Positions 1,320 through 22,670 of a stretch of DNA of 32,543 nt are shown here, piece after piece. The translations under genes were made by a program, and so were the position numbers. The stretch is taken from NCBI GenBank assembly GCA_007135605.1, contig SLIN01000255.1, positions 1 through 32,543 of the forward strand. The letters run 5' to 3'. The first letter of the stretch is position 1. Each line of letters begins with the position of its first letter. This stretch comes from Spirochaetales bacterium (GTDB taxonomy: Bacteria; Spirochaetota; Spirochaetia; DSM-27196; SKKC01). The notes beneath the pieces were generated by a model. The model was not told the origin of the DNA, did not search any database, and saw only the letters and a program-made list of their open reading frames with translations.

Positions 1320-2123
1320 ATGAAGTCATTACGAATAGCGATAATTGCAGGGCTTGCCGCCCTGGTGGCGGCCGCACCGCTCGTTGCGCAGAATCTGCTG
1401 GACAACGAGGAATACCGTCGAGCGCAGGAACTCAGAGCACAGGCCGAGGAGGCGTTCGAAGAGGGTGAATACGATCGCGCGATAGAGCTCGCCGACGAAG
1501 CCGACTACTATATCGAGCGTGCCCGCGAGGTTGGCTTACGGCGCCGGGACGGCTTTCGCGCGGCCAACGCTCGCACGTTGGCACAACGTCGTCTCGATCT
1601 CGTCGACGGCTTCGACGCGGAAACGCACTTTCCCGACGAGTACGGTGAGGCGGTGGCCCGCTTCGACGACGGCCAATCGCTCTACGATGAAGAAGAATAC
1701 GTTGACTCACGGGAGTCGTTTCTCTCTGTGCTCGATGTGCTCGATGACGATATCGTTGCGGAACTCCGCGACATCGCTCGCCGCCTAGCACAGGCGGAAG
1801 AAGAGGCACGAGTTGCCGAAGAGGAGGATGTTCGGCCGACTGAAGAACCGGAACCGGAGCCGGAGCCCCAGATCGAACTACCGGAATACTACGTTGTTCG
1901 ACTCATTCCCGAGCGTCGTGACAGCTTCTGGAGAATCGCAGAGTACGAGTTCGTCTATGATGATCCGTGGGAGTGGCCGAGGCTCTATGAAGCCAATCGC
2001 GATATACTCCGCGATCCGGACAACCCCGACCTGATCCATCCCGGAATGCAGTTCCGCATTCCGAGCCTCGACGATGAAGAGCGAGACGGTGTCTGGCGGG
2101 ACGGAGAGATTATCCGCGACTGA
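1320..2123 (+). CDS. Secreted LysM-domain protein with TPR-like helices
   Basis: 267 residues. Residues 1-23 are a signal peptide ending APLVAQ, so the protein is exported. Residues 24-165 are acidic alpha-helical hairpins with the AEEAFEEGEYDRAIELADEA type pattern seen in TPR repeats. A short E/P linker (about 166-190) leads to a C-terminal LysM-like domain (about 190-252) with YYVVRLIPERRDSFWRIAE, an EWPRLYEANRD segment and the closing IHPGMQFRIP motif. LysM domains bind N-acetylglucosamine-containing glycans, so it probably associates with peptidoglycan. The ATG follows a GGGGGCGACC stretch that can act as a ribosome-binding site. It is co-transcribed with the repeat lipoprotein. Helical-repeat plus LysM proteins of this kind are common in spirochaetes. 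The specific role is unknown. Confidence 0.8.
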   Translation: MKSLRIAIIAGLAALVAAAPLVAQNLLDNEEYRRAQELRAQAEEAFEEGEYDRAIELADEADYYIERAREVGLRRRDGFRAANARTLAQRRLDLVDGFDAETHFPDEYGEAVARFDDGQSLYDEEEYVDSRESFLSVLDVLDDDIVAELRDIARRLAQAEEEARVAEEEDVRPTEEPEPEPEPQIELPEYYVVRLIPERRDSFWRIAEYEFVYDDPWEWPRLYEANRDILRDPDNPDLIHPGMQFRIPSLDDEERDGVWRDGEIIRD

Positions 2124-2155
2124 GAGCGGCTGATATCGTCCGAATACCGGTGTGT

Positions 2156-2180
2156 GGGGGCAGGCGCGAGCCGTGCCCCC
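2156..2180. terminator. GC-rich hairpin between convergent genes
   Basis: GGGGGCAGGC (2156-2165), GCGA loop (2166-2169), GCC with one bulged G, then TGCCCCC (2174-2180). The GNRA-type tetraloop and 10-bp stem favour folding, but no U-tract follows. It lies between the stops at 2123 and 2209 and can serve both strands. Confidence 0.45.
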
Positions 2181-2208
2181 GCGCTCGCCTCCTTCACCGG
2201 GAAGGATT

Positions 2209-4134
2209 CTACGCGCCGAAGTCCCTGAGCACTCCCGCCGATTCGTGAAGGCCTGCGCTTTCGGCGAACTGCAGCGGCGTCCAGATCGTTCCGTCTATTC
2301 GTACACGTTGCTCGACACGGGCCCCGGCACTCGCAAGCAAACGGACGACTTCGGCGGGGTCATACCCATGATCGGCACCGAGGGCGAGCGCGGTCGCGAG
2401 TGGACTGAGCAGGCGCCCTTCGTAGACAACGGTGATTGAAGCATCGCTTCCCGCATCCAGTAGCCGTCCGATGAGCTCGGTTTCCACGTATCCGTTCTCT
2501 ATTCCAATGATGATCGGCAATGCGAGTGCGGTTACGCGCATCTCGCCGGTTTCCATCACAATATCGGGGGTCGCGCCGGCATCGAGCAGGAGGTCGACAA
2601 TCGGGTAGTCGACACTGTCGCGAAACAGCCCGGAGAGAATAACGCTCGACAGGGGGGTCAGGCTCGAATCGGGTGCATCGGCGGAGCCGAATACCGTGTC
2701 CGGGTCGGCACCGGCGTTGAGCAGCAGCTCAACGATCTCCAGATCGGGATCAAATGCCGCCATGAGCTCGTCAATACGGAGACCGGCACCGAACGCGACC
2801 GACAGCACGTCGTATTCACCGGCTATCGTGGCGTTGGGATCGCCACCGGTGCGAAGGTACTCCTCGACGACCTGCGCATCGCTCCGGCGGATCGCCTGTA
2901 CAAGCATCTCGTCGCTGATCGTCGGCTCGAGACGCTTCAGCTCCACCGATATCTCTTCGTCGAGTTCCGGCTCGAATGTCACCTCAATCTCTTCGGTCTC
3001 ATAGCCCTGTCTCCGTATCGTCAGCTTGACCGTCTCTCCCGGCTCGAAGAGCGAGGAGAATATCTCCGATCCTATCGCCAGTCCGTCGAGAAGCACCTCG
3101 GCATCCGGTGGATCGGTAACAACGCGCAAGCGGGACAAGTCACTTCCCGGCGGTTCGGGCGACCGTTCGTCGACGCTGAGCAACGGACGCTCGGCAAGCT
3201 CCCGCACACCGGAGATCCTGCCGGGATCGGCACTGCGAACTTCCGGCTGTGTCGCGCTCATGCGCCCGCGGGCGTATCGAAGCAAGGCACCGATCTCCTC
3301 GACCTGCTCCGGCTCAGGACGTTCGGCCGTACCGTATCGGGCGAGCTCATCGCGCATATCGCGGAGAATTTCGGTCGTCGTCTTCACATCCTCCGGCCGG
3401 ATAGCAACCTCACCGTCGGCGTCCACGAACACCGCGGTTTCGGAAATCTCCTCGATCACCGACAGCAGCTCCTCCACATCGGTAAGCTCGGACAGCTCCT
3501 CCGGATCGATTCCGCTCGGAAGTACCCGCACCCGTCCCTCGGCAACGCTTACAAGCGTTTCGCCCGTTTGCTCGCGCGATACCATGAACCCCGTGGCTCC
3601 CGTATTCACGACGCTGCTGTCGGTGGTGACCCTGACTCGCCGGGCCGTGTTCTGAGGGTCACGGCGTACGATCACGCTGCCGTCGATCAGGTGTAGCATG
3701 AGTCCGGGACGGCCGTCCCGTGCCAGCCGAGTGCGCACCTCGGCGCTCGCCGGTCCGTCTATTCGGAGGAGAGCGGCGTCGGCGTACTGCAGCTCAGCAA
3801 CAGCTCCCGCCGGCACCCGGACTACGTCGCCGGAGGCGGCACGCTCGCCGACCTCGAACGAGAGTCGCTCCTCGTCGCGTTCGAGCTCGATCGCCCCGAA
3901 AGCAAAGCGCAGAAACGGTTCTTCGTAAGCCGCTCCGGATGCGGGCTCTTCGACCGCCGGCTCGACATCATCCGGCTCCTCCGGCCGCGCGAGAAAGCGT
4001 TCGCAACCGACCACAATCAGCGCAAGCGCGACACCGGCCAGCCCGACATAGAAGATCCGGTGCTGTATCCTGCCGATTCCGGTACGCCGGGATTCGCCTG
4101 TCGGAGGCGTGGAGAAATCACTACTATGCCGCAT
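2209..4134 (-). CDS. FecR-PEGA-ankyrin repeat membrane-anchored protein
   Basis: 641 residues. Basic residues 1-27 precede a hydrophobic segment (28-43) ending VVGC, a relaxed lipobox with Cys44; a plain transmembrane anchor is the alternative. Residues 92-215 match a FecR domain: GDVVRVPAGAVAELQYAD, LLRIDGPASAEV, then SSVVNTGATGFMVSRE and LVSVAEGRVRVLPSG. Residues 335-402 are a PEGA domain (VVTDPPDAEVLLDG, GETVKLTIRRQGYE). Residues 407-641 carry about five degenerate ankyrin repeats, for example EIVELLLNAGADPD, PIVDLLLDAGATPD and LIGRLLDAGSDA. FecR domains in such proteins probably act as periplasmic or surface modules rather than in iron signalling, and ankyrins bind proteins. A GAGG site lies 9 nt before the ATG. 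It converges with the LysM operon. Function beyond envelope protein-protein interaction is not known. Confidence 0.85.
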   Translation of the reverse strand: MRHSSDFSTPPTGESRRTGIGRIQHRIFYVGLAGVALALIVVGCERFLARPEEPDDVEPAVEEPASGAAYEEPFLRFAFGAIELERDEERLSFEVGERAASGDVVRVPAGAVAELQYADAALLRIDGPASAEVRTRLARDGRPGLMLHLIDGSVIVRRDPQNTARRVRVTTDSSVVNTGATGFMVSREQTGETLVSVAEGRVRVLPSGIDPEELSELTDVEELLSVIEEISETAVFVDADGEVAIRPEDVKTTTEILRDMRDELARYGTAERPEPEQVEEIGALLRYARGRMSATQPEVRSADPGRISGVRELAERPLLSVDERSPEPPGSDLSRLRVVTDPPDAEVLLDGLAIGSEIFSSLFEPGETVKLTIRRQGYETEEIEVTFEPELDEEISVELKRLEPTISDEMLVQAIRRSDAQVVEEYLRTGGDPNATIAGEYDVLSVAFGAGLRIDELMAAFDPDLEIVELLLNAGADPDTVFGSADAPDSSLTPLSSVILSGLFRDSVDYPIVDLLLDAGATPDIVMETGEMRVTALALPIIIGIENGYVETELIGRLLDAGSDASITVVYEGRLLSPLATALALGADHGYDPAEVVRLLASAGARVEQRVRIDGTIWTPLQFAESAGLHESAGVLRDFGA

Positions 4135-5070: not shown

Positions 5071-6495
5071 CTACAGACCGCGACTGCCGACCGGCGAGCG
5101 TGCGTTAAAAGCCGCACGAAATCGCTCGTAATTCTCGAGATAAAGCGGAAAGAGCTCGGCATACATACGTTCGGTTTCCGCGACCGGCTCAAAGCGCCGT
5201 CGCACGCGAACGAGCTCACCCGCCGCCTCTTCCACACTGTCGTATACTCCGAGTGCGCTGAAGCCCGCCGCAGCATTGCCGACGATCTCGGCGTCGGGCA
5301 CCTCCATGATCGCCACCGGTTTGCCCACCATATCGGCCTTCATCTGGTTCCAGAGATCGTTCTTGCTCTGCCCGCCGCATGCCCGCAGCTCGCCGACCGG
5401 AAATCCGGCTGACTCGATCGTCTCCACGGCCTCTCGCACCGCGTACCCGATACTCTCGACAACCGCCCTGCCCATCTCGGCCGGTCCGTGCTCGGCCCCG
5501 AGCCCGATAAACATACCCGAGGCGAACTCCCAATCGGCCCCTTGATGGAGCGACGGAAAGAACCACGGTTCGACACCGGCGGGAGTAGCGAGGATATCGT
5601 TCATCATCTTCTCGTAGCTGGTTCCGCGCTGACCGCTGATGCGACGGTACCACTCGAAGAGCCGGCCGGTGCTCGAAAGCACCCCGGCGACATTATGAAG
5701 TCCTTGTATGAAGTGCGGCAGCGACCGCAGCCGCCGATCGGTCGAAGGATTCTCGGAGCAGTGATTGATACCTTCGGAGGTACCGGCCCGATCGCAGGTA
5801 CGCCCCGCATGCAGGGTATCGGTGCCGACGAGGCTCATGAGGAAATCGTACGCGCCGGCGACTACGGGGAGCCCCTCGGGGATTCCCCACTGCCGGGCGT
5901 GCTCGGCATCCACATGCCCGATCAGGTCGCCCGTGTACGCGAACGGCGGAAGCTTCGCCGAATCCACGCCATATCGGGCGGCCTGTGCATCATCCCAGAT
6001 ATACGGGGTGAACGCATCGTGCGGTCTGATGGTAATGGCGCTGCCGGTCACCAGGTAGACCAGGTATTCCGGGCAGCTGAGAAACCATCGAACGCGTTCG
6101 GCGCAGCTCGGGTCATTGTGAAAGAGCCACCCGATTCGGGGGAGAAAGAAGCTCGGACAATCGGGGAGCTTCTCGATAACACGATCGTCGTACCAGAGAA
6201 GCGTTTCACAGACCTCCTCTCCGGCGGCATCCACAGCCACAACGGACGGGCCATTGCCGCTGAAAATCATCGCCTCCGGAGGGCCGGCGCCGTATGACTC
6301 GGCGGCGGAAACCGCCTCGCCGGCGGCGAGTGCACAAGCCTCCCGCCAGCGTTCGGCGCCAGGACTTCCGACGCGGTGAATCGACCGTGAGATGATAGCT
6401 CCACTCGACGAGACGCATGCCGCCTTGACACTCGTGGTGCCGATATCTACGGCGAGAATCTGCCGGTCAACGCGCGGTCTATCGCTCGGGAACAA
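5071..6495 (-). CDS. FGGY-family carbohydrate kinase (xylulokinase-like)
   Basis: 474 residues from the TTG at 6495, which has GACGGGAG 7 nt upstream and puts the phosphate-binding strand ILAVDIGTTSVKAA near the N-terminus. Upstream GTGs at 6561 and 6546 would add an unconserved tail inside argH. The enzyme should transfer the ATP gamma-phosphate to a sugar or polyol in the cytoplasm. Visible motifs are DIGTTS, FSGNGPSVVAVD, LLWYDDR, the nucleotide-site DRAGTSEGIN and the second FGGY signature region ACGGQSKNDLWNQMKADMVG followed by AEIVGNAAAGFSALG. Xylulokinase is the closest named relative, but FGGY specificity cannot be read from sequence and no sugar isomerase lies nearby. Its start overlaps the last 17 bp of argH, implying translational coupling. 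Confidence 0.85.
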   Translation of the reverse strand: MFPSDRPRVDRQILAVDIGTTSVKAACVSSSGAIISRSIHRVGSPGAERWREACALAAGEAVSAAESYGAGPPEAMIFSGNGPSVVAVDAAGEEVCETLLWYDDRVIEKLPDCPSFFLPRIGWLFHNDPSCAERVRWFLSCPEYLVYLVTGSAITIRPHDAFTPYIWDDAQAARYGVDSAKLPPFAYTGDLIGHVDAEHARQWGIPEGLPVVAGAYDFLMSLVGTDTLHAGRTCDRAGTSEGINHCSENPSTDRRLRSLPHFIQGLHNVAGVLSSTGRLFEWYRRISGQRGTSYEKMMNDILATPAGVEPWFFPSLHQGADWEFASGMFIGLGAEHGPAEMGRAVVESIGYAVREAVETIESAGFPVGELRACGGQSKNDLWNQMKADMVGKPVAIMEVPDAEIVGNAAAGFSALGVYDSVEEAAGELVRVRRRFEPVAETERMYAELFPLYLENYERFRAAFNARSPVGSRGL

Positions 6496-7852
6496 TGCGA
6501 AACTCCCGTCCGGTAAGGTGCCGGATCGCCGCCGCGGCCTCGGCACGTCTGAGCCGTTCACCGGAGAGCACAGCGGCCAGTGCCGCCTGCGGTTCGGAGA
6601 GGTTGAGATTACCCGGACTTCCGATGGAGGTTCGCTGCGAGATCACATCATCAAAACTGTACTCTTCCAGCTCCGACAGGTGCGTTCCGACGTAGCGATA
6701 CGCATCGCGGAAGCTCTCCCCGTCCCGAACCCGGGCGAGCGCGGCATCGGTTGCGTAGATTTCCGGTTGCAGACCGCGCTCGAGCGCGTCGCGGTTCACC
6801 GTCATGCGCGAGACGGTACGCTCGGCCACGCGCAACGACAGGAGACAGGTTTCCACGCCGCGGAGAAACGGCTCCTTCGTATCCTGGAAATCCCGGTTAT
6901 ATCCGCTCGGCAGTGCACGGATAATGGAGCGCACCGCCGTCGCCCATCCGCCGACCGTCGCAGCACGCGCGCGCAGCAGCTCGAGCGCGTCCGGGTTCTT
7001 CTTCTGCGGCATGATACTCGACCCGGAACAGAGCTCCTGCGGCAGCTCGACATACCCGAGCTCCGGCAGCGAGAAGAGCATGAGATCGGTGGCGAACTTC
7101 GAAAGAGTGAGCATGACGGCCTCGGCAGCGTCGAGCACAACCGCCTCGAGCTTGCCGCGAGAGTTATTCACTGCGAGGACGTTGTTTTGCGTACGCTCGA
7201 AGCCGAGAAGGCCGGCAGTGTACTCCCGATCGAGCGGAAGCGGAACCCCGTAGCTCGCTGCCGCACCGAGCGGAGAACGGTCGCAAAGCCGGCGCGCGGC
7301 GACGGTCAGCTCGAGGTCGTCGATCAGCGCCTCGGCGACCGACGCGGCCCACAGTCCAAAGGTGCTCGGCATTGCGATCTGCAGATGCGTACGCCCCGGC
7401 ATCGGGGTGCGTTCGTGAGTTTCGGCGCACTCCAGCAGTGCGCTGACGAGCTCGGCTGCGGCATCCTGTATTTCCCACAGCGCACTGCGGCCGTACAGCC
7501 TGAGCGCGGCAATTACCTGATCGTTTCGCGAACGACCGGTGTGGATGCGCTTGCCCGTGTCACCGAGGCGATCGGTCAGCCGTGCCTCGATCGCCGTGTG
7601 CCCATCCTCGAGCTCAGCAGGAATCTCGAACACTCCCCGCTCGGCCTCATCCGCGATCTCAACCAGCTCGGCGAGCAGCCGGTCGGCGTCGTCGGCGCCG
7701 ATCACGCCGGCTCGTTCGATGGTACGCGCATGCGCCATGCTCGCCACACAGTCGGCGACGAGCAGGCTGCGATCGAGTTGCGTGTCGTTTCCCACGGTGA
7801 AGCGTTCGACGAGGCGGTCGAGCGAGTAGTCCTTTTCCCAGAGTTTCGCCAT
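6479..7852 (-). CDS. argH: Argininosuccinate lyase
   Basis: 457 residues from the ATG at 7852 (MAKLWEKDYS), matching the usual ArgH start. A GTG at 7882 would add ten unconserved residues. ArgH cleaves argininosuccinate to arginine and fumarate, the last step of arginine synthesis. The fumarase/aspartase-superfamily signature GSSIMPQKKNPD is at 277-288 with the catalytic serine. Also visible are TGRSRNDQV (105-113), GRTHLQIAMPSTFG around His156, and SPLGAAASYG. Length is normal for the family. No argG or other arginine gene is in the window. No Shine-Dalgarno precedes the ATG, while a TTGACA promoter lies just upstream. The sugar kinase start overlaps its 3' end. Confidence 0.95.
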   Translation of the reverse strand: MAKLWEKDYSLDRLVERFTVGNDTQLDRSLLVADCVASMAHARTIERAGVIGADDADRLLAELVEIADEAERGVFEIPAELEDGHTAIEARLTDRLGDTGKRIHTGRSRNDQVIAALRLYGRSALWEIQDAAAELVSALLECAETHERTPMPGRTHLQIAMPSTFGLWAASVAEALIDDLELTVAARRLCDRSPLGAAASYGVPLPLDREYTAGLLGFERTQNNVLAVNNSRGKLEAVVLDAAEAVMLTLSKFATDLMLFSLPELGYVELPQELCSGSSIMPQKKNPDALELLRARAATVGGWATAVRSIIRALPSGYNRDFQDTKEPFLRGVETCLLSLRVAERTVSRMTVNRDALERGLQPEIYATDAALARVRDGESFRDAYRYVGTHLSELEEYSFDDVISQRTSIGSPGNLNLSEPQAALAAVLSGERLRRAEAAAAIRHLTGREFRIVPER

Positions 7853-7860
7853 AGCGTGCT

Positions 7861-7892
7861 TTGACGCTACCGACGCGGGCACCCGCTGTCAA
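7861..7892 (-). promoter_or_regulatory. argH promoter candidate with internal inverted repeats
   Basis: On the minus strand a perfect TTGACA (7892-7887), 17-bp spacer and TAGCGT (7869-7864), ending 11 nt before the argH ATG. The same stretch contains TTGAC/GTCAA (7861-7865, 7888-7892) and GCGGG/CCCGC (7875-7879, 7882-7886) as nested inverted repeats, which could be an operator. Confidence 0.45.
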
Positions 7893-7956
7893 TGAGTGCA
7901 TCGGGGGACACCGGCGGCGCGTGCTTACACACGTCGAAGTTCCGGCGCACCCGATG

Positions 7957-7985
7957 TACACAAGTGGGGCGGTTCGGGTTATTCT
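7957..7985 (+). promoter_or_regulatory. Promoter candidate for the gamma-glutamyltransferase gene
   Basis: TACACA (7957-7962), 17-bp spacer, TATTCT (7980-7985), 11 nt before the ATG at 7997. Each box matches four of six consensus bases. Confidence 0.35.
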
Positions 7986-7996
7986 GGGAACGTCCT

Positions 7997-10252
7997 ATGA
8001 GCAAGCAGCCCCCCTATCGCATTACATGTGTCGGTTCCGGCCGCTCGGCCGGACCAGGAACCGTCTTCGCCACGATCCTCGCAGCCGCAGCGTTGGTTCT
8101 CTCGGCCTGCGGACCCACAACGGTTCGCGACGGCGATTACATCGTATATACCGCCTCGTCGACGTCGGACGGGTGGCACGCCATCGTCCGGCTGGTTGTG
8201 GAAGATGCGGAGATCGCCGAGATCGACTTCGACTACTTGAACGAAAGGGGCGAAGTGCTCAGCGAACAGTCGGCGTGGCACGAGCGGCTTCGCGCCGCGT
8301 ACGGGACCGGACCGGCGGAAGCGTTCGAGCGCTTCGCCGATGAGTTGCGTCGCGAGCGGGAATTCGATCCGGAGGCGCACACGTACAACTCCGGAATCCT
8401 GCACGACGTTCGCCGCTACGGCGCAGCCGCAATAGCGGCAGCCACCGACGGCGAGGCGGGTGTTATCCGGCTTAGCGGCACGGAGCGGGAGGTAATCGCC
8501 GAAGGCGATATCGCGCCGGACGAGAACGCGCTCTGGACGGCGGTGAACGAGTATCTGCAGGGTGATTCACACCGGCGCCACCGGCGAGCCGTACGCGGAG
8601 GCCTTGTCGCCTCGGAGTCGCGTGGCGGTCTCGCCGCCGTTTCGCAGGATGAGCTGGCCACCGAAGCCGGAATGCGCGTGCTGGAAGCAGGCGGTACCGC
8701 CGCCGATGCGGTTTTCGCCATGTCGTCGGTGCTTTCGGTCGTCGAGCCGATGCTCTCGAGCGTTTTCGGAGGCGGTACGTGGCTGCTCTATTACGATGCG
8801 ACCGCCGACGAAGTAGTTTCGCTCGGTGGTGTCGGCCCGGTTCCGCAGGCGGCAAATATCGAGCGGTTCCAGGACTCGAGTTTTTTCGGACGACGCGGCA
8901 TTCATCGCGCGATCGTTCCCGGCGCGTGGGCGGGCTGGATGACGCTGCTGCGTGAGTACGGACGGACGTCGCTCGGCGATCTCATGAGCGATGCGGAGCG
9001 TATCGCACGCGAAGGTCACTCGATGCGGGCGATGACGAACCAGTACCTTTCAGGCCGGCGGGACGAGGTGCGTGGCTGGCCGTATGCTGCCGAGGTCTAT
9101 ATGCCCGGCGACCGGAATCTCCGGGCCGGCGACACAATTCGCCATGAGAACATGGCCGACACCTTCCGGTCGGTTCGACGGGCCTACGACGATGCGCGCT
9201 CGCAAGGTGAAATGGCGGCGCTCGACGCCGCCGAGGATCACTTCTATCGCGGGCGGATCGCCGAAGAAATCGCCCGTTTCTCCCGCGAGAACGGCGGACT
9301 GCTCACATACAGCGATTTCGCAAACTTCGACGGTGCTGATATTGTCGAGCCGATTTCGATCGACTATCGCGGCTACGATGTCTACCAGAACCCGCCCAAC
9401 AGCCAGGGAATCGTTATGTTACAGGCGCTCGGCATGTTGCGAAACTTCGATTTCTCCGGCCTCGGCCCGCACGATGCCGAAACCGTTCATCGTCAGGCGG
9501 AGGCGCTCAAACTCGGCTTCCTCGACCGCCATCGCTATATCGGCGATCCGGATTTCGTCGACATGGATATCGACTTTCTCCTCTCCGATGACTACCTGGC
9601 CGACCGTGCATCGCTGATCAGCCCGAACATCATCAGGAGGTGGCCGATGGACGATGTCGACAGCCTCATGGCGGACGCAGGGAACACGACCACACTGCAC
9701 GCGGTTGACCGCTATGGAAACGTTGCCTCGGTCACGACATCGATCGGAATCAGCTTTATCGTCGCCGGAGAAACCGGCATTCATATGAACGAGCGTATCA
9801 GTTTCATGAGCAACGATCCCGATCACCCGAATGCGATCGAACCGGGCAAGAGGGTCCGCCACACCTCGATGCCGTATCTGGTGTTCGACAACGGCCGCCC
9901 GTATATCGCCGGCGGAGTAACCGGGGCGGATTTCCAGCCGATGGGACAGCTCCAGCAGCTCATGCACATCGTAGACTTCGGAATGACACCGCAGGAGGCG
10001 GTCGAAGCGCCGCGATTCGACGTTCGCACCTTCCCGCAGACCTTCTTCCCGTACGCGGTTCAGAACCGGCTGCTGTTCGAGCCCGGATTCCCGGAGGGGA
10101 CGCGAAATATCCTCTCAAACCGCGGGCACGATACCGGAACCGGTACATACTGGGGCCACGCAACGGTCATTACCATAGACGACCATGCATCCGGCGACAT
10201 GCGCGTCGGCGCGGAAACGCGCGAGGTCGATGCGCTCGGGCTGGTCCGATAG
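7997..10252 (+). CDS. ggt: Gamma-glutamyltransferase lipoprotein with N-terminal FMN_bind-like domain
   Basis: 751 residues from the ATG at 7997, which gives a clean lipoprotein signal (lipobox LSAC, Cys38); the frame stays open upstream to 7892 without a signal. Residues 40-165 resemble the FMN_bind-like part of COG4939 lipoproteins: DGDYIVYTASSTSDGWHAIV, IAEIDFDYLNERGEVLSEQS and TGPAEAFERFADEL. The usual SGA(T/S) flavin-attachment motif is not seen. Residues 200-751 are gamma-glutamyltransferase: GGLVASESRGGLAAVSQDEL, LEAGGTAADAVFA, SVFGGGTWLLYY, the nucleophile region NTTTLHAVDRYGN with candidate Thr564, and GGVTGADFQPMGQLQ near the end. The enzyme hydrolyses or transfers gamma-glutamyl groups, for example from glutathione, after self-cleavage before the threonine. 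The usual TTH is TTT here, so activity needs checking. It diverges from argH. Confidence 0.85.
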   Translation: MSKQPPYRITCVGSGRSAGPGTVFATILAAAALVLSACGPTTVRDGDYIVYTASSTSDGWHAIVRLVVEDAEIAEIDFDYLNERGEVLSEQSAWHERLRAAYGTGPAEAFERFADELRREREFDPEAHTYNSGILHDVRRYGAAAIAAATDGEAGVIRLSGTEREVIAEGDIAPDENALWTAVNEYLQGDSHRRHRRAVRGGLVASESRGGLAAVSQDELATEAGMRVLEAGGTAADAVFAMSSVLSVVEPMLSSVFGGGTWLLYYDATADEVVSLGGVGPVPQAANIERFQDSSFFGRRGIHRAIVPGAWAGWMTLLREYGRTSLGDLMSDAERIAREGHSMRAMTNQYLSGRRDEVRGWPYAAEVYMPGDRNLRAGDTIRHENMADTFRSVRRAYDDARSQGEMAALDAAEDHFYRGRIAEEIARFSRENGGLLTYSDFANFDGADIVEPISIDYRGYDVYQNPPNSQGIVMLQALGMLRNFDFSGLGPHDAETVHRQAEALKLGFLDRHRYIGDPDFVDMDIDFLLSDDYLADRASLISPNIIRRWPMDDVDSLMADAGNTTTLHAVDRYGNVASVTTSIGISFIVAGETGIHMNERISFMSNDPDHPNAIEPGKRVRHTSMPYLVFDNGRPYIAGGVTGADFQPMGQLQQLMHIVDFGMTPQEAVEAPRFDVRTFPQTFFPYAVQNRLLFEPGFPEGTRNILSNRGHDTGTGTYWGHATVITIDDHASGDMRVGAETREVDALGLVR

Positions 10253-19716: not shown

Positions 19717-20520
19717 CTACGCGAGCGTTGCGTAGACCATGAACGCACCGACGGCGACGACCGCCACCGCGAAAATGGTGCGCAGCAGCTGCGACGGCAG
19801 ATATCCCTTGGCGACGGCCCCGCCCTGCATCCCGAAAAAGCTGCCGGCGGCGAAGAGCAACGAAGCAACGACGGGAATAGTGTTCGCGGCGCCGACGTTG
19901 GAGATGAAACCGGACACCGAAGTCAGCGCGATAGCGACCAGCGAGGTTGCCAGCGCGTGCTGAATGGAAACGCCTCCGACGAGCAGAAGCGCCGGTACGA
20001 GCAGGAATCCGCCCCCGACTCCGAAGAGGCCCGAGAGAAACCCGGTCAACGCACCGGCCCCGAGCAGCTTCGACGCACACGAGAGACTCGCCTGTGGGCG
20101 CCCGCGCTCGTCGGTTTTGCAGGCAAACGCACGGGTAACCGGAATTTCCGTACTCTTAGCGCCACGCAACATCTGCACGCCGACCGCCACCATGAGCGCC
20201 GCGAACAGGATTACCACCAGATCGTCGGACATACCGGCGCCGGCGAGCGCGCCAAGCGGCGCGACCGCAATACCTCCGATTCCGAGGATCAATCCGGCCC
20301 GCCACAGCACCTGTCCGCTTTTCGCCTGGATAATCGCGCCGAACAGCGATGTTGTTCCCACAATAACCAGCGACATCGCGACGGCGGTACGAAGCTCCAT
20401 TCCGAGCCCGTATACCAGTAGCGGCACCGCGAGAATCGAGCCCCCGCCCCCGGTCAGTCCGAGGGAGAGGCCCACAAGCAGACCGAACGCCGTCGCCAGC
20501 GCGACTGTTACAAGTTCCAT
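19717..20520 (-). CDS. TauE/SafE-family (TSUP) sulfite/organosulfonate permease
   Basis: 267 residues, about eight helices in two homologous halves, typical TSUP size. Half one has GLSLGLTGGGGSILAVPLLVY and half two has GFLSGLFGVGGGFLLVPALL; the GxxGxGGG-P motifs are the family hallmark. A central cytoplasmic loop contains CKTDERGRPQASLSC. TSUP proteins export sulfite or move sulfur-containing organic anions. It lies 16 bp downstream of the CstB-like gene in the same direction, which makes export of sulfite formed by that enzyme a reasonable inference. The exact substrate is unknown. Confidence 0.9.
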   Translation of the reverse strand: MELVTVALATAFGLLVGLSLGLTGGGGSILAVPLLVYGLGMELRTAVAMSLVIVGTTSLFGAIIQAKSGQVLWRAGLILGIGGIAVAPLGALAGAGMSDDLVVILFAALMVAVGVQMLRGAKSTEIPVTRAFACKTDERGRPQASLSCASKLLGAGALTGFLSGLFGVGGGFLLVPALLLVGGVSIQHALATSLVAIALTSVSGFISNVGAANTIPVVASLLFAAGSFFGMQGGAVAKGYLPSQLLRTIFAVAVVAVGAFMVYATLA

Positions 20521-20536
20521 AGGATCGCCTGAACCG

Positions 20537-21961
20537 TCATGCCGCGGCGGCGGTCATGCAGTGCTCGCAGTCACCGTCGAGCAGCACCACGTCATAGCCG
20601 ATGCTCGCGAGAAAAGACGCGGCAACCGCGGCTCGACGTCCCGTTCGGCAGTAGACGTAGTAGCGCTTACCCGTATCGAGCTTCTCGAGCCGTGTTCGGA
20701 TGCGCGTGTGCGGAATGTGGATGGCGCCCTCCACGTGCGCGCTGCCGTACTCATCGCTCCGCCGTACGTCGAGCACAACGTCGTTTTCACCGAGCTTCTC
20801 CGCGGTGAAGTCCTGGAACCGCTCGGCTGCGAGCGTGGTCAGGTTGTTCGGGACCTGCGCCTTCAACTCCTCGAAGTGGACATATCCGACGATGCGGTCG
20901 AGACCGATTCGGTACAGCAAGCGCCGCGCGATATCGGCGTCCTCCTCGGACTCGAGCACGAGGAGAATGCGCTCGTCTTCGGTTACCACGGATCCGGCCG
21001 CATTCGTGAACTCCGAGCCCTTCATCGGCGCGTTGATCGCCTGCGGGAGCCGTTCGGAGAGAAACGCCTCGCGGCTTCGCCGTGTATCGAGCACACGCGT
21101 CTGCGAACGCTCCGCCTCTGCGAGGAAGCTCTCCGGATCGAGATGGGGTGCCTCAGGGGGCCCGCCGGTGACTTCGATACCGTCGCGGTTGACCTGCTTC
21201 ATCCGCGCGAAGTAGAGCGGAGGCTCCGGCTGGCCGGTCAACACATCGCCCACGAAGCTCTCCGGCCTGGTTCGCGCAAGCGAGAGCGCTCCGTTGAAGC
21301 GGCGTTCGTACCCGAGTGTCGAGGTGGGCACCGCGCCGAGCGCCTTTCCGCAGGCGCTTCCGGCTCCATGGCCCGGGAGTACCTGGAGGAACTCCGGCAG
21401 GTCTTCGAGCTTCGTACCGAGAGAGTCGGCGAGCGTGCGGGCGGACGGTTCCATCGCCCCCGTTACGCCGGCCGCCGACTCGAGCAGATCGGGTCGACCG
21501 ACATCACCGACGAAGAGAAAGTCGCCGGTGGCGATTGCGATCGGTTCGGTTGCCCCACCGCCCCGGTCGGTTACGAGAAAACTCATGTGCTCCGGTGTGT
21601 GCCCCGGGGTATGCACCGCCTTGAACTCGATATTGCCGACGGCGAACGTGCTTCCATCTTCCAGGAACACCGTGTTCGGCCGATTGCCGACCCACTTGTA
21701 CGACCAATCTTCTCCACCCATCGCCGAGAGGTAGAGCGTAATATCGTGATCCTGAGCGAACTCCCGCGCGCCGCTGACGAAATCGGCGTGGATATGGGTC
21801 TCCGCGACTGCGGTAATCCGCAGGTCGTTCTCCCGAGCGATACGGTGGTACTGGTCGATATCGCGTTCGGGATCGATCACGATCGCCTCGCCGGTCACCT
21901 GACACCCGATAATGTAGGCGGCCTGGGCAAGTCCGGTATCGTATACCTGTTTCATGAACAT
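20537..21961 (-). CDS. CstB-like persulfide dioxygenase-rhodanese (MBL fold + pseudo-rhodanese + rhodanese)
   Basis: 474 residues from the ATG at 21961, 7 nt after AAGGAG; a longer frame has no such site. Residues 1-245 are an ETHE1-type metallo-beta-lactamase domain: ETHIHADFVSG (54-64), HTPGHTPEH from His117, ATGDFLFVGDVGRPDLL with Asp147, and VLPGHGAGSACGK with His198. These bind the mononuclear iron that oxidises persulfides to sulfite. Residues about 275-370 are a rhodanese-like domain with no cysteine at the active loop (LLVLESEEDA). Residues 380-470 are an intact rhodanese with YVYCRTGRRAA and Cys438. This three-part order is that of CstB, which removes sulfide-derived persulfides and yields thiosulfate. 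Its neighbours are sulfur transporters. Confidence 0.87.
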   Translation of the reverse strand: MFMKQVYDTGLAQAAYIIGCQVTGEAIVIDPERDIDQYHRIARENDLRITAVAETHIHADFVSGAREFAQDHDITLYLSAMGGEDWSYKWVGNRPNTVFLEDGSTFAVGNIEFKAVHTPGHTPEHMSFLVTDRGGGATEPIAIATGDFLFVGDVGRPDLLESAAGVTGAMEPSARTLADSLGTKLEDLPEFLQVLPGHGAGSACGKALGAVPTSTLGYERRFNGALSLARTRPESFVGDVLTGQPEPPLYFARMKQVNRDGIEVTGGPPEAPHLDPESFLAEAERSQTRVLDTRRSREAFLSERLPQAINAPMKGSEFTNAAGSVVTEDERILLVLESEEDADIARRLLYRIGLDRIVGYVHFEELKAQVPNNLTTLAAERFQDFTAEKLGENDVVLDVRRSDEYGSAHVEGAIHIPHTRIRTRLEKLDTGKRYYVYCRTGRRAAVAASFLASIGYDVVLLDGDCEHCMTAAAA

Positions 21962-22106
21962 ATGCGTTCTCCTTCTGTTCGTCTCTTTACTAGTCGAATC
22001 TCTTGTATACACAAAACTATATTAAGAAATCTATACATTGACAAGAGGGAATATATGTATTATTTCATTCGAAACAGAGCACAACGGATGAAGGAGAACG
22101 GTTTAT
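21962..22106. promoter_or_regulatory. AT-rich divergent control region of the sulfur module
   Basis: This 145-bp gap is far more AT-rich than its surroundings. It contains a perfect TTGACA (22038-22043) on the plus strand with TATTTC 17 bp on, or TATTAT at 14 bp, for the transporter operon. It also has the palindrome TGTATACA (22004-22011) within TTGTATACACAA, a possible operator or reverse -10 region. Shine-Dalgarno sequences AAGGAG precede both start codons. Confidence 0.55.
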
Positions 22107-22670
22107 ATGTTGGAAGCAATTACCGGACCGTGGCCATGGTACGTGACAGGTCCACTTCTGGGATTAATGGTACCGATCCTCATGTTCGCGGGGAACAAAC
22201 ACTTCGGTGTGTCGACATCGCTGCAGCACATCTGCGCGGCGACGATCAAGCCGAAGACCAAGTACTTCCAGTATGACTGGAAGAAGCAGGCGTGGAGCCT
22301 CGTATTCGTAGCGGGAACGATCATCGGCGGAATTCTCGCGGTAACGCTGTTCGGCGCCGACTCGTCGCCGGCGCTCTCCGAAGGTGGTCGCGGGCTCTTC
22401 GCATCATGGGGAATGGAGGACCCGGCGCAGCTGCAGCCGGCGGAGATTTTTGCGATTACCGGCGGAAATGTCGTCCGTCCGCTGCTCTCACTCGGGCTCG
22501 GCGGCTTTCTCGTCGGATTCGGCGCCCGATACGCGGGCGGATGTACCTCCGGCCACGCAATCATGGGCACATCGCTGCTGAATCCCGGCTCATACGTGGC
22601 CACCATTTCGTTTCTCGTCGGCGGTTTCGCCGTCTCGAATCTCATCGTTCCGCTTATCATGAGCCTGTAG
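22107..22670 (+). CDS. YeeE/YedE-family sulfur transporter, first half
   Basis: 187 residues with about five helices. The conserved substrate-path motif RYAGGCTSGHAIMG, with its cysteine, is characteristic of YeeE/YedE (COG2391) proteins, some of which import thiosulfate. Helices include LLGLMVPILMFA, WSLVFVAGTIIGGILAVTLF and VATISFLVGGFAVSNLIVPL. A strong GGAGAACG site precedes the ATG. The single-chain thiosulfate importer is made of two such halves; here they are separate genes 6 bp apart. The divergent CstB-like enzyme suggests import of sulfane sulfur or thiosulfate for oxidation, or the reverse for detoxification; direction is inference. Confidence 0.88.
   Translation: MLEAITGPWPWYVTGPLLGLMVPILMFAGNKHFGVSTSLQHICAATIKPKTKYFQYDWKKQAWSLVFVAGTIIGGILAVTLFGADSSPALSEGGRGLFASWGMEDPAQLQPAEIFAITGGNVVRPLLSLGLGGFLVGFGARYAGGCTSGHAIMGTSLLNPGSYVATISFLVGGFAVSNLIVPLIMSL

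Follow-up and report, generated by a model that had tools for sequence, protein, structure and literature searches.

The described systems closest to the gene analysed here are the PplA-type FMN_bind lipoproteins (NCBIfam model NF041941; PDB 3o6u, the uncharacterised CPE2226), for its N-terminal part, and PDB 2nlz, named cephalosporin acylase, which we take to be a Bacillus halodurans protein, for its enzyme part.

FMN is loaded by ApbE onto the last residue of the motif D-x-x-[S/T]-G-A-[S/T]. In a published model, as given in excerpts of PMC12052999, single changes of the Asp, Gly or Ala of this motif halved flavinylation or had minor effects; replacement of Thr by Ser at the attachment residue was tolerated with a loss of 10 to 55%, and replacement of Thr by Ala abolished flavinylation. 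For gamma-glutamyltransferase (GGT), the roles of R114, T391 and D433 are described in excerpts of PMC8062742: activity was left in BsGGT D445A (40%), EcGGT D433N (82%) and BlGGT R109S (85%), and was not detectable in EcGGT R114L. A survey of 47 GGTs (PMC4568574) found the TTH and TXN motifs replaced in extremophile and archaeal clades and the LSS motif variable across the whole branch holding these enzymes, and states that the motif His helps to activate the nucleophile.

The window, i.e. the whole stretch of 32,543 nt that was analysed, contains on its forward strand a gene (7997-10252) encoding a protein of 751 aa, in which an FMN_bind-derived lipoprotein domain is followed by a GGT-like Ntn hydrolase. 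The listed open frame spans 7892-10252 (+); the in-frame ATG at 7997 was chosen as the start because a compact signal peptide results. The initial annotation had ended the gene at 9700, a position inside the catalytic motif and just past the nucleophile, and therefore omitted nearly all of the small subunit; the true end is at 10252. A sequencing error or chance as the origin of this frame was ruled out, since it is open, conserved and under selection (see below).

The signal peptide (7997-8110) ends in a lipobox, as the initial annotation had noted; it was read by eye as LSAC, with the putative lipid-attachment residue Cys38 at 8108-8110; a lipobox-like stretch with a Cys was seen, by eye or by pattern, in all 19 fused proteins listed. 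The FMN_bind/PplA-like domain covers residues 43-158 (8123-8470) and is followed by the end of the N-terminal module and a variable linker (residues 159-207; 8471-8617) ahead of the GGT-like portion of the large subunit (residues 208-563; 8618-9685). Thr564 (9686-9688) aligns with the E. coli GGT nucleophile Thr391. Self-cleavage is predicted immediately before it, and the predicted small subunit (9686-10249) has 188 aa; among the chains listed, this subunit measured 185-193 aa in eight of nine and 225 aa in the other.

Residues 43-158 matched the second half of the PplA model NF041941 (E 1.5e-10, or 4.3e-11 when the region was searched alone); the score of the gene, 40.7 bits, lies far under the model's own cut-off of 325. 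PDB 3o6u matched the N-terminal region from the single sequence (E 3.2e-6), and a profile built from 18 fused N-terminal domains matched 3o6u (E 1.2e-12) and 2kzx (E 1.2e-5). NF041941 was matched individually by 16 of the 18 fused domains. Pfam FMN_bind (PF04205) was matched neither by the window domain (E limit 10) nor by any of the 18 fused domains (E limit 1), indicating that the domain has diverged past that model, which is matched by a stand-alone protein of the same genome (contig C295). The best Pfam match, a family of plant-virus proteins hit by 3 of the 18 fused domains (best E 5.7e-5), was taken as chance.

AlphaFold models calculated from two and three input sequences were of low confidence (mean pLDDT 44.4 and 30.0). 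A Foldseek search with the N-terminal model of pLDDT 44.4 ranked 3o6u first (E 5.1e-3, TM 0.22), a result that was given no weight, the model being too poor.

Together with the Pfam match of the enzyme part to the GGT superfamily PF01019 and the lipobox, the matches to NF041941 and to 3o6u bear out the proposed fusion of a GGT with an FMN_bind-like lipoprotein domain. At the sequence level, the similarity to FMN_bind is present and shows descent of the N-terminal domain from a PplA-like FMN carrier. When compared with the PplA-type lipoproteins, the window protein has the same N-terminal domain by sequence and a lipid anchor, but it is fused to a hydrolase, lacks the flavinylation motif and has one recognisable repeat rather than two.

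In the joint alignment, the position of the flavinylation motif is occupied by EAHTYNS (residues 126-132; 8372-8392) in the window and by EAHTYNA in the sister genome. The motif was kept in none of the 18 aligned fused domains, as the initial annotation had said for this protein, and its suggestion of a redox-like domain is thus left without support. Ser stands at the attachment place in 4 of the 18, including the window (Ser132), and the remaining 14 have neither Ser nor Thr there. None of 21 proteins showed [ST]GA[ST] within the 200 residues that follow the Cys. Among the 14 stand-alone domains of the joint alignment, drawn from 20 proteins matching the fused-domain profile, 12 kept [ST]GA[ST]; presence of the motif had been the reason for including 9 of the 14. 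The pattern [DN]x(1-3)[ST]GA[ST] occurred anywhere in 15 of the 20 stand-alone proteins, a set chosen by closest similarity to the fused domain and not at random. To judge from these alignments, the fused domain has probably lost the ability to receive flavin by the usual route.

The host genome encodes ApbE and 13 FMN_bind stretches, 12 of them above the cut-off, and the C295 protein is a two-repeat lipoprotein with two TGAT motifs. No match to the fused-domain profile was obtained for six other FMN_bind loci of this genome (L063-L068). The flavin-loading enzyme is thus encoded, yet the fused domain has most likely left that system.

Two stand-alone lipoproteins resemble the fused N-terminal domain, one in the host genome (contig C355, 593-1429, minus strand; profile E about 1e-22) and one in the sister genome (contig C352, 89-1006, plus strand; about 1e-23). 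They too lack the motif (DVEDGPR), and their genes adjoin a gene which by eye resembles a histone-deacetylase-type amidohydrolase. FMN_bind domains were also seen in frames of 595, 532 and 504 aa on the host contigs C219, C361 and C223, perhaps further fusions.

The enzyme part matched PF01019 at residues 227-743 (E 9.2e-114, 381.5 bits against a cut-off of 27), and missed the cut-off of the equivalog model TIGR00066 (324.3 against 357.85 bits). Alignment with E. coli K-12 GGT placed Thr564 at T391, Ser at T409, Gly at G483 and Ala at G484. R114, N411, D433, S462 and S463 correspond to V, G, F, H and T in the window, with a possible shift of one column at D433; the lid residue Y444 aligned to a gap. 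The nucleophile Thr, the Ser at T409 and the Gly at G483 were kept in all clade rows that extend to these positions. In this alignment, the catalytic region is reached by the C-terminal pieces of L045 and L051, but not by the N-terminal ones of L045 (two), L051 and L055.

An altered nucleophile motif had been noticed before, and the window does read NTTTLHAVD where TTHxS is usual; the nucleophile itself, Thr564, is retained. Among the 36 clade rows showing the motif, 30 have TTT, two TST, two TTS, one TTG and one TTM, which makes the alteration a trait of the clade. Outside the clade, 13 GGT-like rows other than E. coli have TVY (11), TTC (1) and TTS (1). Activity could be lower, since the usual motif is altered at H393 and S395 and the His is reported to assist the nucleophile (PMC4568574). 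The extremophile and archaeal GGTs of the same survey show the same kind of motif change, but the replacing residues differ from those of the window.

PDB 2nlz was the best solved GGT relative by sequence (E 5.2e-69). In that alignment it has, like the window protein, no lid-type insertion, H-T in place of S462-S463 and a Ser at T409. The window differs from it in having TTT and not TVY at the nucleophile, Gly at N411, Gly-Ala and not Gly-Gly at the oxyanion pair, and in the addition of the N-terminal FMN_bind-derived domain and the lipobox. Class IV cephalosporin acylases are related to GGT and have D433 replaced, as in the window (excerpts of PMC8062742); these have Asn there, whereas the residue aligned in the window appears to be Phe.

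Relatives were found in 38 of the 61 genomes searched, the host genome counted. At least 18 full fusions were identified, in at least 13 genomes (families f1, f4 and f7) out of 46 from the order to which the window belongs; in addition, G010, G021 and G038, also from this order, carry a divergent, longer fusion. No fusion spanning both parts was found among the matches listed from 348 other genomes of the class, and in the phylum search of 296 genomes, with matches listed at E up to 1e-10, no protein but that of the window aligned over the full profile. The profile, covering the N-terminal domain and the GGT start, had been built from the fused proteins themselves; at most six first-look candidates per genome were scored in the search of order and class, and at most nine in that of the phylum. 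The initial annotation had considered the fusion unusual, a view that does not hold given that the extension is routine in this subfamily: the FMN_bind-derived/GGT-like fusion is real, conserved and ordinary within its clade.

On trees of the GGT part, the distribution of fusions requires no fewer than three changes between fused and unfused. We read the second tree as showing one loss of the fused state besides two gains; five changes would be needed if the fusion had arisen only once. The branches deciding this are weakly supported (85/79, 90/88 and 86/89). Eight short rows were dropped ahead of both trees. The divergent fusions L026 and L028 were labelled outside the fused group in the first tree and counted as fused in the second, from which three long rows were omitted. 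The member from genome G045, nested in the fused group, keeps the enzyme and is missing the N-terminal domain, showing that the domain is not essential. The fused gene adjoins an unfused GGT paralogue in six genomes (G009, G028, G032, G036, G040 and G043), as do the divergent fusions of G010, G021 and G038.

The divergent fusions L058, L026 and L028 have a longer N-terminal part, by eye maybe two degenerate FMN_bind-like repeats, hinting at a two-repeat PplA-like protein as the fusion partner. Fused genes broken by one stop codon each were seen at L045 (contig C266 of G003; TAA) and L051 (contig C312 of G040; TAG), representing either a pseudogene or an assembly error; the L045 locus includes another fused gene, truncated at the contig end.

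Both parts of the protein are under purifying selection, the N-terminal part less strictly. The FMN-like part had a dN/dS of 0.107 and the GGT part one of 0.062 between the window and its sister genome; for the pair G004-G005 the values were 0.074 and 0.020. For G004-G006, the GGT part gave 0.027 and the FMN-like part was saturated, giving no ratio. In the distant pair, window and G004, the N-terminal part evolved faster (0.284 against 0.122). The signal peptide was freer (0.36 for the window and its sister, 0.21 for G004-G005), and the linker, of only 22 codons, less clearly so (0.25 and 0.08).

Besides the fused gene, the host genome has unfused relatives (contigs C269 and C48), and its contig C356 carries a C-terminal fragment. 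The C269 paralogue (1330-3339) has a low-complexity, Gly/Ala-rich insert just ahead of its nucleophile motif TTTFH. In the C48 gene (718-2760), another GGT-like one, three tandem copies of a short, AGTPPHHGTERGP-like repeat are inserted in the small subunit.

No common pathway was indicated by the 20 neighbouring or nearby genes scanned, four of which are not neighbours of a fused gene (two beside the C269 paralogue, two or more further off in the window). They include radical SAM and thiolase genes at L050 and L053, a glutamate dehydrogenase gene at L048 and an AbrB gene beside the unfused C269 paralogue; as the genes differ between genomes, no pathway was inferred. At L048, in G004, the fused gene (5857-8124) lies directly upstream of the glutamate dehydrogenase frame (8128-9876). 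The window also has an open frame of 770 aa (19964-22276, +) with no Pfam match at E up to 0.001, and the frames overlapping it on the opposite strand may be the real genes.

A phage origin was rejected: 10 of 50,697 phage records matched, all of them below 60% identity and short of 80% query coverage. For the five matches listed, coverage was 67-72%, and the alignments, which start at residue 193 or 208, involve the GGT part only; the two annotated ones among these five are Salmonella gamma-glutamyltransferase genes. No relatives were found in two scans of viral contigs. Literature searches pairing 'FMN_bind' with 'gamma-glutamyltransferase' returned nothing, the titles and abstract openings retrieved with lipoprotein terms show no such fusion, and a word search of the main text of the flavinylation survey PMC8238504 did not find 'glutamyl'.

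The interpretation that we favour, and hold to be reasonably probable, is that of a lipid-anchored, self-cleaving Ntn amidohydrolase of the cell envelope with the GGT fold and a non-classic donor pocket, in which the FMN_bind-derived domain is a spacer or docking module. The protein would be exported and then lipidated at Cys38. The conserved nucleophile suggests that it would cleave itself before Thr564 into a large subunit, on which the FMN_bind-derived domain would stay, and the small subunit of 188 residues. The mature enzyme would hydrolyse the amide bond of a small peptide or an acyl-amide, most likely for nutrient scavenging, through a donor pocket that, judging from the aligned residues alone, would differ from the classic gamma-glutamyl pocket. 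The N-terminal domain, its flavin-attachment motif lost, may have been retained between membrane and enzyme as a spacer or as a docking module.

The GGT fold, clear by sequence, and the presence of the nucleophile would also suit a true gamma-glutamyl hydrolase that has a rearranged binding pocket and acts on glutathione or poly-gamma-glutamate, and some canonical mutants without the Asp or the Arg still hydrolyse (excerpts of PMC8062742). Here, however, R114, N411, D433, S462 and S463 are replaced all together and the TIGR00066 cut-off is missed; these residues bind the gamma-glutamyl moiety in the E. coli enzyme, and the classic chemistry assumed in the initial annotation is therefore doubtful. 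The undetectable activity of EcGGT R114L, reported in the same excerpts, argues in the same direction. We consider such a hydrolase rather unlikely, and a gamma-glutamyl substrate appears less likely than another N-acyl or amide substrate. That the GGT fold serves binding only, as the initial annotation had offered in its alternative of a non-enzymatic derivative, is improbable: the residues adjoining the nucleophile are altered, but the nucleophile Thr, the Ser at T409 and G483 are kept wherever the clade rows extend to them, and the GGT ratios were low in the three nearer pairs and in the distant pair. The enzyme part is thus probably active, as far as conserved residues can tell.

A redox-coupled enzyme, its N-terminal domain binding FMN non-covalently or flavinylated at Ser132, would fit a genome with ApbE and many FMN_bind stretches, the Ser at the attachment place in the window and three other fused domains, and the partial tolerance of single motif changes, with Ser able to stand for Thr (PMC12052999). 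In the window, though, Asp, Gly and Ala are replaced together (by E, Y and N), the sister genome has at the attachment place the Ala that abolishes flavinylation in the published model (same excerpts), and 14 of 18 fused domains have no Ser or Thr there. Flavinylation of the window domain is therefore disfavoured, and we regard a redox-coupled enzyme as very improbable. A bolder version of the spacer or docking interpretation, which we put forward as speculative and unlikely, is that the retired flavin-carrier domain serves as a docking or sensing module placing a new, lid-less, non-gamma-glutamyl Ntn amidohydrolase at the envelope, perhaps beside the flavinylated lipoproteins apparently encoded by the same genome.

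As the fusion recurs across one spirochaete order, it represents a modest new variant and not a one-off oddity. It provides a case, repeated across that order, in which an electron-carrier domain lost its cofactor site and stayed under purifying selection inside an enzyme. It also marks a GGT-like group that is probably labelled gamma-glutamyltransferase by default, and whose real substrate is likely to be different.
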